In this document: positions 8,099 through 63,716 of the stretch, piece after piece
Numbering within the stretch: position 1 is the stretch's first letter
Layout: each line of letters starts with the position of its first letter
Assembly (NCBI RefSeq): GCF_014189455.1
Contig: NZ_CP050296.1
Span: forward strand, 1,612,001-1,676,000
DNA length: 64,000 nucleotides
DNA from: Mesorhizobium huakuii
GTDB taxonomy: Bacteria > Pseudomonadota > Alphaproteobacteria > Rhizobiales > Rhizobiaceae
Reading direction: 5' to 3'
Position numbers and translations under genes: made by a program
Notes under the pieces: model-generated
What the model was told of the DNA's origin: nothing
The model's database searches: none
Seen by the model: only the letters and a program-made list of their open reading frames with translations

Positions 8099-8352
8099 CT
8101 TGTATCTCCAAACACGCCTTTCGGCGCGCACAAGGGTGCGGACGCGGGCTGTCGGCCTCGCGAACACGCGATCAAACAAAGGCGGGACGAAAATTCCATG
8201 GAACCAGCCGGTGGAGACCCCGGAACCATGAAACGCCGTCTCGCGGCGATGAACCTTGGCCTTGCCCGGCTTCGGTCCGCTTTGTCTGCCTTGGCTTGGA
8301 TTGGGAGAACCCCGTTCCGCACTACCGGCAATGAAGGTGTGCCTCTTCAGTA
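8099..8352 (-). promoter_or_regulatory. Structured 5' leader of the decarboxylase gene, candidate speF-type RNA
   Basis: About 250 untranslated bases precede the decarboxylase start on the minus strand. Visible hairpins include CGCCG-CGAGA-CGGCG (from TCATCGCCGCGAGACGGCG, near 8233-8252) and CGCGCC-GAAA-GGCGTG, a GNRA-loop stem ending a few bases before the GGAG ribosome site. A conserved speF RNA motif upstream of alphaproteobacterial ornithine decarboxylase genes is known from comparative genomics. Location and strand match it, but I have not matched the covariance model. No leader-peptide gene was identified. Confidence 0.5.
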
Positions 8353-8641
8353 ACCCCGGTCTTTGGACAACCGGCAGAGAACCAGAAAGGCCCGCACCGT
8401 CGTTGCTTCAAGGTGTCCTCGGGCTGGCGGTTGGCCGCTAGACCGACTGGAGGGGTTGGCTCCAGTTACCTTACCGATTTCCCTCACCATTCGAGGATCG
8501 GCGGACACCCACAGGCACGTGCGACTTTGGGCAAGCGCGATATATGGCTGGTTGCCGTCACAATCAATAAAAATCGTATCCAAGGTTGTAAAATTTCTGG
8601 CATCGAACAATGTTGGGAGGACCGTATCCGGATATCGAACG
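8353..8641. other. Intergenic region between divergent decarboxylase and amidase genes
   Basis: This 289-base stretch presumably holds the promoters of both divergent genes. It contains a comparatively AT-rich segment (about 8560-8610, with TAAAAATCGTATCC and TTGTAAAATTTC). GGGAGG at about 8615 is some 20 bases from the amidase ATG, too far for an ordinary ribosome site. No gene is visible. Confidence 0.5.
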
Positions 8642-25441: not shown

Positions 25442-25723
25442 ACGGATGTGTCGTTTTCACATCCGAATATCGATCCTAATGGTTAATCATCGCTTATTGA
25501 AGCCGAAATGCGGTAACACCATGGCGATATCCCGTCAAAAATTGTTCACAAGACTTCTTGGTAAACCGCTGGTTTAGATCAGGATTCCGGCTTTGGCCGA
25601 ACACGATCTGTTACCGTTAGCCTTAATGCGTGAACAGAGCTGTCCACAGGCTTGCCATATTCCAACCGAAACCCCCGATACAGGGCCAAATCTGGCATTG
25701 CAAGCTGGTCCGGGCCTTGCGGC
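25442..25723. other. Intergenic region upstream of the DUF882 gene
   Basis: This 282-base, comparatively AT-rich stretch must contain the DUF882 promoter on the minus strand. No gene or strong structure was seen before the repeats that begin at 25724. Confidence 0.4.
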
Positions 25724-25764
25724 GGGAGCGTGATCCCGATTTTCGGAAGAGATCAAACGCTCCC
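25724..25764. repeat. Short palindromic repeat (GGGAGCGTGATC...GATCAAACGCTCCC)
   Basis: GGGAGCG-TGATC and GATCAAACGCTCCC pair across CCGATTTTCGGAAGA. It directly abuts the larger repeat that begins at 25765. Confidence 0.6.
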
Positions 25765-25908
25765 AAGGTGTGTTGAGATTCAGGTCAGGCCGAGTCGAAA
25801 ATGGTGGGTTCCGAGAACCGGAGCGGAGCGTACTTGAAGTACGTGAGCACCGGAAGCGCAGGGAACCGCCGTTTGCAGGCCGGCCTCACCTGAATATCAA
25901 CACACCTT
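25765..25908. repeat. Copy A of a 144-170 bp palindromic intergenic element
   Basis: The ends AAGGTGTGTTGAGATTCAGG and (reverse complement) AAGGTGTGTTGATATTCAGG are near-perfect terminal inverted repeats. The centre holds GCGTACTTGAAGTACGTGAGC-like palindromic sequence. Copies B (44116) and C (47314) share the whole length. This copy overlaps the TAA stop of the minus-strand response regulator. Confidence 0.85.
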
Positions 25909-27442
25909 AGGAGGCGAGACGATCGACGCGGCCGGTTTCCGGATCGATACCGTATTCCTTGAGCTTGCGGTAAAGCGTCGAGCGGCCGATGCCGAGGCGG
26001 CGCGCGACTTCGCTCATCTGGCCATTGTAGTGATCGATGGCGAGCTTGATCATCTCGAGTTCGACGTCGGCCAGCGCCCGCACATTGCCGCGTTCGTCGA
26101 GCGCCCGCAGCGTGCCGAATCTGGGCTGGAGCACGGCCGGCCGATCCGGCTCGGCCAGCGGAGCGGTATCGCCGGCTGGGACCTCCTCATCGCGGAGCCC
26201 TGGAGGCGACACAAAATGAGGTGCTGTGTCGTCCGTTTCGAGATTGACGGTGCCTTCCACCTGCGCCCGGATCTGCGGAAAGTCATCGACGTCGAGCACA
26301 TCGCCGTCACACAGCACCGAGGCGCGGAAGACGGCGTTTTCGAGCTGCCTTATGTTGCCGGGCCAGTCATAGGCCTGCAGCACGCCAAGCGCTGCCGCCG
26401 AAATGCCTTGCAGGCGATGGCGCGGATCGGCAGGCGCCACCTTCTCCATGAAATGCGTGACCAGATGCGGAATGTCGTCGCGGCGGTCGCGCAACGGCGG
26501 CACGAAGATCGGGTAGACGTTGAGCCGGTAGAACAGATCCTCGCGGAACTTGCCGTCCTTGACCTGCTGCAGCAGGTTGCGGTGCGTCGCCGAAATCAAC
26601 CTGATGTCGACCCTGACGGTGGCGCGGCCGCCGACCGGATCGACCTCGCCGTCCTGCACGGCGCGCAGCAGCTTGACCTGGACGTCGAGCGGCAGATCAC
26701 CGATCTCGTCCAGAAACAGCGTGCCCGAATGCGCCTCGACGAACTTGCCGGTGTGCTTGTCGGTGGCGCCGGTGAACGAGCCTTTCTCATGGCCGAACAG
26801 GATCGATTCGACCAGATTGTCGGGAATCGCGCCGCAATTGACGGTGACGAAGGGTTTCGAGCGGCGGTCGCCGCTGCCCTGGATGGCGCGCGCCACCAGC
26901 TCCTTGCCGACGCCGGATTCGCCTTCGATCAGGATCGGGATGTTGGATCCGGCCGCTTTCTGGCCGAGGCGGATCACCCTGTCCATGGCCGGACTGTGGG
27001 TGATCATATCCTTGAAGGTCAAAAGGCCGCCGCGCTTGCGCGACGTGCGTTTGACCTCGCCCTCGACCGCCTCGACCTTGAGCGCATTGGCGATCGACGC
27101 CTGCAGCCTGTCGGGTGAAGCCGGCTTGACGACGAAATCGAAGGCACCGTGGCGCATCGCCGACACCACGGTTTCGATGCCACCCTGGGCGGTCTGGACG
27201 ATGACCGGAACGGTGATGTCGCGTTCACGCATCGCCTTCAGCACGCCGATGCCGTCGAGACCGGGCATGACCAGGTCGAGGATGACCACGCAGACGTCGC
27301 GGGCACCAGTCCCGTCAAGCACTTCGAGGCCGGCGGCACCGCCGTCGACGACGATTGCCGTGTGGCCGAACCGCGTCACCGCCGCCTCGAGCAGCCGGCG
27401 CTGCACGGGATCGTCATCGACTATGAGTATGGAACCTGTCAT
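25907..27442 (-). CDS. Sigma-54-dependent response regulator, NtrC family
   Basis: The 511-residue protein has a receiver domain (1-120; phospho-acceptor D56 in ILDLVMPG, K106), an AAA+ domain (about 145-380; Walker A GESGVGKE at 174-181, Walker B LFLDEIGD at 242-249) and a Fis-type DNA-binding helix pair at the C-terminus ([19 protein letters not shown]). The sigma-54 contact loop reads GSFTGA (221-226) rather than the usual GAFTGA. ATG 27442 gives the typical [11 protein letters not shown] start; an in-frame ATG at 27481 is possible. No histidine kinase gene is nearby, so it is an orphan regulator with unknown targets. Its TAA stop lies in a dispersed repeat. Confidence 0.92.
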
Positions 27443-44115: not shown

Positions 44116-44285
44116 GAGGTGTATTGAGATTCAGGTCAGGCCGAGCCGAAAGCGATGGGGTCGCCCTTGCGACGAGCGGAGCGTACTTAAGTACGTGAGC
44201 ACAGTTCTATTGCGACGCAATAGAACGGGGAGGCGCAGAAAGCCGCCGTTCGCAGGCCGGCCTCACCTGAATATCAATGCACCTC
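44116..44285. repeat. Copy B of the palindromic intergenic element, with a nested hairpin
   Basis: The ends GAGGTGTATTGAGATTCAGG and (reverse complement) GAGGTGCATTGATATTCAGG are terminal inverted repeats, and the centre contains GCGTACTTAAGTACGTGAGC. Compared with copies A and C there is an extra segment near 44200-44230 containing GTTCTATTGCG and its reverse complement. The right end overlaps the stop codon of the KpsF gene. Confidence 0.85.
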
Positions 44286-45285
44286 AGGCTGCGCCGATGC
44301 GCAGCAGGTCATGGAAATGCACCACGCCGAGCGGCACATTGTTCCTGGTCACCACCAGCGCGCCGATATTGTGCTCGTTGAGCAGCGCGATCGCCGTGCC
44401 GGCAAGCGTCTGCGGGTCAACCGTCTTGGGCGTGCGGGTCATCACCTCGTCGACGATGACGTCGGCCAGGTGGCGGTGCAGGTTGCGCGCGACATCGCCG
44501 TCAGTGATGATCCCGGCCAATTCGCCATTGGTGTCGACGATCAGCACGCAGCCGACCTTCTTCTGTGACAGCGTCATCACCGCCTCCGGCATCTTGGTGC
44601 CAAGAAGTGCCAGCGGAATCTGGTCGCCGACCCGCATGATCTCGGAGACCAGCGTCAAATTGGCGCCGAGCTGGCCGCCGGGATGGAAGGTGCGGAAATG
44701 GTCCGGCGTGAAGCCGCGCGCCTCGAGCAGCGCGATCGCCAGCGCATCGCCGATGACCAGTTGCAGTAATGTCGATGTCGTCGGCGCCAGGCCGTGCGGG
44801 CAGGCCTCCGGGGTGCGCGGCAAAAGCAGCACGACGTCGGCCGCACGCGCCAGCGCCGATGTCTCCCCAGCGGTTATGGCGATAAGCGGAATGGAGAAGC
44901 GCCTGGAATAGGCGATGATGCCCTTGAGCTCGAGGCTTTCGCCCGACCACGACATGGCGATGATGGCATCGTCCTTGGCGATCATGCCGAGATCGCCATG
45001 GTTGGCCTCAACGGGATGAACGAAGAAAGCCGGTGTGCCGGTCGAAGCCAGCGTCGCCGCGATCTTCGAGCCGATATGGCCGCTTTTGCCGACGCCGGTG
45101 ACGATCAGCCGGCCTTCGATCTTCGAGATCATATCGACGGCCTGCGCGAAAGGCGCGGCCAGTCCGTTCTCGAGCGCTTCGGCCAGGGCGGCGATTCCGG
45201 CCTGCTCGGTTGCCACCGTTCTCAGTGCCGAATCAATCGACGCTTGCCTGTCCAGGGGCTTCTTATCGAGGGATTTCGCGTGCAT
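44284..45285 (-). CDS. kpsF: Arabinose-5-phosphate isomerase, KpsF/GutQ family
   Basis: The 333-residue enzyme interconverts ribulose-5-P and arabinose-5-P, the first step of Kdo synthesis for lipopolysaccharide or capsule. It has an SIS sugar-isomerase domain (about 45-180; VTGVGKSGHIGSKIAATLASTG, HGDLGMIAKDD) and two CBS domains (about 205-333). ATG 45285 is chosen. Its TGA lies within the end of repeat copy B. GalU and the outer-membrane barrel are encoded next to it, consistent with envelope work. Confidence 0.94.
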   Translation of the reverse strand: MHAKSLDKKPLDRQASIDSALRTVATEQAGIAALAEALENGLAAPFAQAVDMISKIEGRLIVTGVGKSGHIGSKIAATLASTGTPAFFVHPVEANHGDLGMIAKDDAIIAMSWSGESLELKGIIAYSRRFSIPLIAITAGETSALARAADVVLLLPRTPEACPHGLAPTTSTLLQLVIGDALAIALLEARGFTPDHFRTFHPGGQLGANLTLVSEIMRVGDQIPLALLGTKMPEAVMTLSQKKVGCVLIVDTNGELAGIITDGDVARNLHRHLADVIVDEVMTRTPKTVDPQTLAGTAIALLNEHNIGALVVTRNNVPLGVVHFHDLLRIGAA

Positions 45286-47313: not shown

Positions 47314-47459
47314 AAGGATATGTTGAGATTCAGGTCAGGCCGCGCCGAGAATGGTGGGTTCCGAGAACCGGAGCGGAGCGTACTTAAAGTACGTGAGCAC
47401 CGGAAGCGCAGGAAGCCGGCATTCGCAGGCCGGCCTCACCTGAATATCGGCATATCCTA
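47314..47459. repeat. Copy C of the palindromic intergenic element
   Basis: The ends AAGGATATGTTGAGATTCAGG and (reverse complement) AGGATATGCCGATATTCAGG are terminal inverted repeats. The interior is close to copy A. The terminal bases differ from copy A in both arms together. The galU reading frame runs into this copy. Confidence 0.85.
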
Positions 47460-48363
47460 AAAAAGCCGCGCCGCGGCGCTGTGACGGCTTCATCTCGTCG
47501 AGAAGCGTTCGGATGACACCGGCCATGTTCTCGTTCATGTCGCTGCGCCACAGCGCGAAAGCGACATTGGCCTCGACGAAGCCTTCGGGCGAACCGCAGT
47601 CGAAGGTGCGGCCCTGATAGTGGTAGCCGTAAAAAGCCTGCTGCTTTTCCAGCTTCAGCATCGCGTCGGTGAGCTGGATCTCATTGCCGGCGCCCTTTTC
47701 CTGGCCTTCGAGTATCTTGAAGATCTCGGGCTGCAGGATGTAGCGGCCGTTGATGTAGAGGTTGGAGGGCGCCGTGCCGGTCTTCGGCTTCTCCACCATC
47801 TCGGTGATGCGGAAGCCGTGATGCGTGTCCTCGCCGCGGCCGACAATGCCGTATTTGTGAGCCTCCGCCGGGTCGCATTCCTGCACGGCAATGATGTTGT
47901 TGCCGGTTTCCTCGTAGAGCTCGACCATCGACTTCATGCAGCTCTTTTCCGACTGCATGATCATGTCGGGCAGCAGAAGCGCGAACGGCTCGTCGCCGAC
48001 CAGTTCGCGCGCGCACCAGACGGCATGGCCGAGCCCCATCGGCACCTGCTGGCGGGTGAAGCTGGTCTGGCCCGGCGCCGGCTGCAGCCGCTGCAGCCGG
48101 GCAAGCTGCTCGTCCTTGCCGCGCTGGGCCAGCGTGTCGTAGAGCTCGAACTGGATATCGAAATGATCCTCGATGACCGCCTTGTTGCGGCCGGTCACGA
48201 AGATGAAATGCTCGATACCGGCCTCGCGCGCCTCATCCACCACATACTGGATGACCGGCCGGTCGACGACGGTCAGCATCTCCTTGGGAACAGCCTTGGT
48301 GGCCGGGAGGAACCGCGTGCCGAGACCGGCGACCGGGAAAACTGCTTTGCGAACTCTCTTCAT
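47335..48363 (-). CDS. galU: UTP-glucose-1-phosphate uridylyltransferase with repeat-derived C-terminus
   Basis: The 342-residue enzyme makes UDP-glucose from UTP and glucose-1-P for exopolysaccharide and glucan synthesis. The nucleotide-binding start [20 protein letters not shown] and the conserved [25 protein letters not shown] and [10 protein letters not shown] blocks are intact through about residue 300. The normal end near RRGAAF is followed in frame by 39 codons that lie in repeat copy C ([17 protein letters not shown]...), stopping at TGA 47335-47337. In the other copies the same position gives TAA or TGA at the gene end. The tail is thus probably acquired and may be dispensable. Confidence 0.93.
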
Positions 48364-63615: not shown

Positions 63616-63700
63616 CGGACAGGTTTTCCTGTCCATGCCCTCCTTGGGCGTTTCCTCCCTAGACTTCGACCGTATCGTGCAAACGATGCGGTCTTTTTTT
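63616..63700 (+). ncRNA. mmgR: MmgR/suhB-motif (alpha-r8) type trans-acting sRNA
   Basis: A promoter at 63582-63609 is followed by a hairpin GGACAGG-TTTT-CCTGTCC, an unpaired CCTCCTTGGGCG and TTTCCTCCCTAG segment, and a terminator hairpin (GACCGTATCGT/ACGATGCGGTC, loop GCAA) with a seven-T run at 63694-63700. The size of about 85 nt, the UUUCCUCCC single-stranded motif and a location beside an inositol-monophosphatase-family gene match the conserved suhB RNA family known in Sinorhizobium as MmgR, which affects polyhydroxybutyrate accumulation. Family assignment is from recalled motifs, not a model search. Confidence 0.75.
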
Positions 63701-63716
63701 ACGCCGCGATTTCCAA

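Follow-up and report, generated by a model that had tools for sequence, protein, structure and literature searches.

The window, a stretch of 64,000 nucleotides of the Mesorhizobium huakuii genome, carries three copies (A, B and C) of a palindromic repeat, each adjoining a minus-strand gene. The gene families concerned are the sigma-54 response regulators, the KpsF/GutQ-family isomerases and GalU, and the features of the three sites are listed below by coordinates, strand and description.

25764..25765, +: target dinucleotide to the left of copy A, at present CA and read as a decayed duplicated TA under an inferred TA rule
25765..25908, folding strand +: copy A, overlapping the stop codon of a sigma-54-type response regulator gene
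25907-25909, -: TAA stop codon of the response regulator gene, its last two bases inside copy A
25908..25909, +: target dinucleotide TA to the right of copy A, which supplies the first two bases of the TAA stop on the - strand
44087 (stop), +: NfeD-domain gene, convergent to the KpsF/GutQ-family gene near copy B
44116..44285, folding strand +: copy B, which contains an additional inner hairpin GTTCTATTGC..GCAATAGAAC
44284-44286, -: TGA stop codon of the KpsF/GutQ-family gene, its last two bases inside copy B
47293 (stop), +: beta-barrel porin domain gene, convergent to galU near copy C
47315..47458, folding strand +: copy C, at the end of galU (- strand)
47335..47456, -: segment of copy C through which the galU frame reads, 41 residues past the end in relatives
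47335-48363, -: galU frame, its end shifted relative to relatives, with 41 extra residues from copy C

An initial annotation had described this element as a three-copy repeat at the 3' ends of minus-strand genes. The positions of the three copies were corroborated both by reading the coordinates and by a covariance model trained on 71 rows (named copies from outside the window), which placed copy C at 47315-47458. Across the 64 kb the model scored copy A at 167 bits, copy C at 161.8 and copy B at 76.2, the best strand being + throughout; scores of 38-68 bits on the - strand arise because the copies are palindromes. Nothing notable was found in the window beyond these three, the next match scoring 12.8 bits (E 0.34). 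Since 50 blastn matches to the element were identified in the same genome (G000, 8.45 Mb; E <= 1e-3), the three-copy repeat is not a product of chance.

Closer examination refined other parts of the annotation. The shared ends and central palindrome are present, with a centre in copy B one base shorter than the pattern given, and the shared end motif is only a section of a far longer inverted repeat. The terminal bases of both arms do change together in the three copies. Placement at minus-strand stop codons holds for copies A and B and fails for copy C, where the galU frame runs through to 47335; in the seven relatives giving a reading (eight tried), this frame ends at ...RGAAF. A search of Rfam returned no match to the element at the gathering score, nor any up to E 10 for 25700-25980, and membership in a known Rfam family was rejected. 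Elsewhere in the window, Rfam matches at 8228-8532 (-) and 63630-63707 (+) corresponded to the ar45 sRNA, speF leader and suhB/mmgR.

Architecture and distribution of the element family

Read in the direction of the adjoining gene, a typical copy starts with the stop codon (TRR), about six variable bases, YYGATATTCAGGTGA(G/T)GCCGGCCTGC and an inner stem, continues through hairpin modules around a CGTAC...GTACG centre, and closes with GGCCTGACCTGAATCTCRR and a second arm that is complementary to the first and also to the final two bases of the stop codon. Full forms span ~124-257 bases between the inner motifs (122 named copies among the matches listed), and are short and without a transposase gene. 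Their terminal inverted repeats, comprising the outer stem and inner arms (helix 1), are paired in 94.0% of cells. The inner modules vary in mosaic fashion among copies, some of which possess extra GTTCTACTGC...GCAGTAGAAC or CCGGCCTTCGCCGG hairpins, and recurring short forms resemble deletions between CGGCCTG direct repeats. Among the 18 named copies (matches listed) that have no normal left arm, we found no longer, gene-bearing form: one has its left motif 464 bases away, eight are short internal-deletion forms, and some lie at locus ends. A second repeat type was also observed at three loci (L025, L028 and L030), with the same CGTAC-centred core between other outer arms (TGTTTCGAAATTC...); this common core with different arms indicates that cores and arms have been exchanged.

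The genome containing the window yielded 23 two-arm copies among the 30 loci fetched. At E <= 1e-10, the element was identified in 69 of 73 Mesorhizobium genomes and in 2 of 48 other genomes of the order, while 35 of 72,556 plasmid records matched, other Alphaproteobacteria included and at least 14 of them Sphingobium. The covariance model recovered all 18 loci supplied from other genera. At the end of cysH, which 73 genomes carry, the element or a remnant was present in all 30 of the Mesorhizobium genomes inspected, and the copy sits within a row of codirectional genes. Likewise, Aminobacter has a copy at the end of an annotated electron-transfer-flavoprotein beta gene, and so do unannotated Rhizobium and Ensifer plasmids at a gene end recognized by similarity, with arms that differ yet remain paired (loci L408, L430 and L431).

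Stop codons and probable insertion at TA

Named genomes were scanned with an 18-base internal pattern that disregards the ends, giving at least 119 stretches and at least 122 distinct copies; 104 of the 122 named copies among the matches listed have both arms, and the counts that follow refer to these listed copies. With stop codons called by a codon-position heuristic rather than from annotation, 73/104 copies have an open-frame stop 8-16 bases away from the left motif and 12 have one at that distance from the right motif (both ends in 7, neither in 26). The stop codon is thus fused at the left end in these 73 copies, and distinct gene ends (n=65) divide into 53 left, 11 right and 1 mixed. 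The left fused stops comprise 41 TAG, 21 TAA and 11 TGA, so that 62/73 contain TA, against a background of 111/292 TAA or TAG among predicted stops in 400 kb of the same genome. The 150 bases past the element hold 2.7 TA on average (42 listed copies), and a random pick among gene-end TAs would therefore not give such fusion. Where the stop lies at -11 (42 listed copies), 8 copies have TA on the far side and 13 have TG, which implies that under an insertion model most far-side TAs must have decayed. A converging gene lies within 300 bases in 69/104 copies, and none was found by this test in 35.

In another genome (L144, G023), the stop codon of the kpsF-family gene is occupied by a short hairpin starting TAGAGCGGTTCG. 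This hairpin may represent a second miniature element at the site, and suggests that elements of this kind use stop codons as landing places in general.

We compared 13 sites of the M. huakuii genome with five relatives, of which 59 of 61 matches were fetched and read. The comparison of orthologous loci for target-site duplication, called for at the outset, gave one clean case (L009), in which TA flanks both sides of the filled site and a single TA is present in the empty relative G066; other sites were at most compatible. L010 is a compatible case with TG on the far side, and its host gene is followed, beyond the element, by a terminator-like hairpin of its own, in common with the empty sites. 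At the response regulator site, also compatible, one filled relative has TA on both sides, and TAG occurs at the same place in two element-free relatives whose downstream DNA is only partly alike. Comparison of filled and empty states at L013 and L014 gave no clear reading of a TA duplication, and the L013 relatives may hold remnants of the element. At the L015 site, genome G039 (L285) has two outer arms joined only, AAGGCGCCTT, where others have the full element; this is either a deletion footprint or an older palindrome.

Plasmids of other genera provided further cases. On a Shinella plasmid the element lies exactly between the TAG stops of two convergent genes, and on another Shinella plasmid two convergent genes overlap in CTAG, with differing neighbours, so that it is not a strict empty site. 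Copies from Sphingobium and Shinella have TA on both sides. These observations fit insertion at TA with TA duplication, and together with the filled and empty sites and the copies on plasmids of other orders they uphold the earlier proposal of a miniature mobile element with a target at gene ends.

As for a mobilizing enzyme, 30 IS630-type loci (from G000, G004 and a Sphingobium plasmid) were inspected; 18 had TA-flanked inverted repeats, none of which matched the ends of the element. The IS630-type elements of G000 (L433-L462) end in TA-GAGCGGTTCGC, and two groups of them begin GAGCGG, with which the ends of the short hairpin at L144 agree. Tenzen and Ohtsubo reportedly dealt with IS630 and CTAG in 1991. 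The Y1 (RAYT) transposase domain PF01797 gave 0 matches in G000, with positive controls in 5/14 genomes, and a REP/RAYT system was accordingly rejected for this genome.

The folding strand and its orientation

The strand antisense to the left gene had the lower predicted folding energy in 101/104 listed copies, with a mean gain of ~10 kcal/mol. For covariation, 72 short forms from the listed copies were reduced to 71 by exclusion of a palindromic duplicate of L193, and the structure was paired in 94.9% of cells, compared with 30-38% only for slid structures. Covariation on the folded strand, as anticipated from the three window copies, is supported: 23/55 pairs change on both sides (242 cells), against 14.7 pairs and 69.9 cells in shuffles, with 0/500 shuffles reaching either value, although these shuffles ignore relatedness and related copies are weighted equally in the energy, strand and covariation counts.

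Mispairs were also distributed unequally between the strands. Cells of the + strand included 289 G.U, 40 A.C and 159 other mispairs; three pairs contribute 144 of the 289 G.U, and the inner stems without these give 55 G.U and 18 A.C. Arm mispairs on the gene-sense strand were 69 A.C and 16 G.U, and the rows of a further strand comparison were limited to 77 short forms. The cysH orthologs (21 of 30, nine being left out as deleted, long or without a right motif) gave 65 G.U and 18 A.C, partly through shared ancestry. From other genera, 16/17 rows fold better on the same strand, several of them coming from two Sphingobium plasmids. At L403, where the element has the reverse orientation to its gene, the asymmetry is nonetheless present, which indicates that it belongs to the element. 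Strand-biased mutation, or selection against lagging-strand hairpins, is therefore an unlikely source of the G.U asymmetry, given that it follows the element at this one reversed site. The asymmetry does not distinguish RNA from single-stranded DNA.

These features bear on three alternative explanations. It had been suggested that the repeat forms an RNA structure at the 3' end of the adjoining minus-strand gene, under selection in the sense transcript as a terminator or mRNA stabiliser; the exact position and biased orientation to the gene are consistent with this, as are the persistence of the cysH copy or remnant within its codirectional row and the fact that both strands of copies A, B and C fold better than shuffles (z -7.1 to -9.8). 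However, the gene-sense strand is the one that folds worse and favours A.C over G.U mispairs, while the strand that keeps G.U pairs is +, antisense to the gene. Furthermore, no terminator-like pattern (a G+C-rich stem followed by a T run) was found inside the three copies, and an intrinsic terminator was rejected on this ground; three weak 5-pair hits fall outside the copies or on their edges, including one that immediately precedes the element at the galU end. We consider a role in the sense transcript quite improbable.

A second alternative is that the host keeps the + strand RNA, either as the 3' region of the convergent gene or as an antisense or small RNA into the abutted gene. Strand asymmetry and covariation agree with this, as do the 69 copies near a converging gene, the long retention at cysH, and the filling of the same gene end in Aminobacter and in Rhizobium and Ensifer plasmids. 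Weak promoter-like matches also occur on the folding strand of copies A and C (25773-25802 and 47323-47352, +), consisting of TTGAGA, 18 bases, and GAAAAT or GAGAAT (9/12 positions). Conversely, 35 of the listed copies have no converging gene, the Rfam search gave no match, and the asymmetry kept at the reversed L403 is the element's own and may serve mobility only. Such an RNA is a serious possibility that we nevertheless judge to be less than probable.

Paired arms might also arise with no selection on the fold, through template switching within the palindrome or through separate insertions of subfamilies with different terminal repeats. This would accommodate the swapped inner modules of mosaic copies, the recurrent internal deletions between CGGCCTG repeats, and the arms that are almost wholly different between species at one orthologous gene end. 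Neither process, however, predicts the excess of G.U over A.C seen in the inner stems and among the cysH orthologs, and we regard this explanation as unlikely.

Replication direction was derived for G000 and G004 from the polarity of GGGNAGGG, which we take to be KOPS, and from GC skew, with 20 samples per genome, a few of which ran opposite to the majority. With classes assigned by hand, the folding strand was the lagging-sense strand in 23/25 classed matches in G000 and 37/39 in G004. Of the 27 matches in G000, those not classed were a second match within one copy and a match on the replichore boundary; of the 45 in G004, a second match and five close to the unclear terminus were set aside, and a G004 match at 3.65 Mb falls between the samples that set the boundary. 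One chromosome half holds 22 of the 25 + 1 boundary matches as + copies in G000 (G000:C1), and one half holds 32/39 in G004 (G004:C1). A one-strand majority is also evident, prior to any replication mapping, in G027 (5 and 14) and G033 (3 and 17), and G021 has 3 and 1. Many of these sites are probably inherited, so the replication-oriented copies are not independent events.

By analogy with IS200/IS605, these biases could reflect single-stranded DNA transposition linked to the replication fork, as suggested by the lagging-sense orientation in both genomes and by the single orientation to the stop codon at 53 of the 65 gene ends among listed copies. Yet the genome containing the window has no Y1 transposase domain, and the TA duplication at L009 is not something that IS200/IS605 insertion is known to produce. 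In addition, the active strand of IS608 is the lagging-strand template, and the folding strand here is its complement, the opposite strand. We therefore consider this route very improbable.

Proposed origin and comparison with known repeats

The reading that we favour, and hold to be probable, is of a non-autonomous, mosaic, palindromic MITE-like transposable element that would insert at TA with duplication and restore stop codons, with a conserved folding strand. Where the TA forms the first two letters of TAA or TAG, the stop would be rebuilt because the element starts with A or G, leaving the gene unharmed. Exact fusion to stop codons may thus reflect harmless landing, perhaps together with a preference for CTAG/YTAR targets. 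One folding strand (+ in the window and antisense to the abutted gene in most copies) keeps Watson-Crick or G.U pairs despite sequence change; the transposase would presumably act in trans, perhaps from the IS630/Tc1 kind, and the folded form, whether RNA or single-stranded DNA, would be important to the spread of the element and perhaps to the host where copies have long been retained. What is observed is the fusion to stop codons, the biased orientation, the covariation and the asymmetry between strands, together with a clean TA duplication at one site. The TA target is symmetric and by itself gives no account of the orientation bias. A host role for the element is possible.

More tentatively, and with considerable doubt, we suggest that the element spreads as, or is kept for, one folded strand (RNA or single-stranded DNA), with insertion, coordinated with the replication fork and in a single orientation, into the stop codons of genes on the leading strand. 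Dozens of genes per genome would then carry a seamless antisense hairpin, some of them genus-wide, and that of the electron-transfer-flavoprotein beta gene in three genera.

The MITE-like reading illustrates how a mobile element can settle where a compact genome pays almost nothing, namely at a stop codon that it restores, and joins within one element three biases usually studied apart: stop-codon position, gene orientation and replication orientation. Transcription of the folding strand, if it occurs, would mean that dozens of genes in each genome have a common hairpin opposite their 3' ends. With its many orthologous sites, filled and empty, the family lends itself to testing how a selfish sequence is tolerated, and perhaps put to use, where genes end.

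A partial search of the literature, with subscription papers mostly outside it, returned no description of this element. The best-supported assignment is to the TA-inserting kind of miniature element already known in bacteria, and the nearest known kinds, set by their descriptions, are the ERIC, RUP and Correia elements, RIME and the A/B/C motifs, and the Br-REPs. The Rhizobium-specific intergenic mosaic elements (RIME) and A/B/C motifs of Sinorhizobium meliloti are likewise mosaic, palindromic, intergenic rhizobial repeats in the parts of the sources available (PMC2573895, PMC2873474), compared here by description, and some S. meliloti repeat regions are reported there to be transcribed. No S. 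meliloti occurs among the plasmid matches listed (25 of 35 records). Br-REP1 and Br-REP2 of Bradyrhizobium are palindromic repeats too, found where the 3' regions of convergent genes overlap and reported to give rise to small RNAs on both strands (PMC5082802); their printed consensus is unlike the element by eye, and the available part of that description mentions no stop-codon fusion. MITEPsy1 of Pseudomonas syringae, a 100-nt MITE according to the accessible portion of its report (PMC3189936), inserts at CTAG or YTAA, a TA-containing target as here, but differs in duplicating 4 nt, in having 18-nt terminal repeats of one sequence, and in its assignment to IS5 with a question mark.

As far as the available part of their description extends (PMC2229807), ERIC/IRU/RU-1, RUP and Correia/NEMIS resemble the element as non-coding, imperfect palindromes of 100-170 bp with TA termini, target duplication and many intergenic sites, and ERIC affects mRNA in a manner dependent on orientation. 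Compared with these, the present element occurs in other hosts and is distinguished by fusion to stop codons, preference for one end, swappable inner hairpins, outer arms that vary yet stay paired, and one conserved folding strand.
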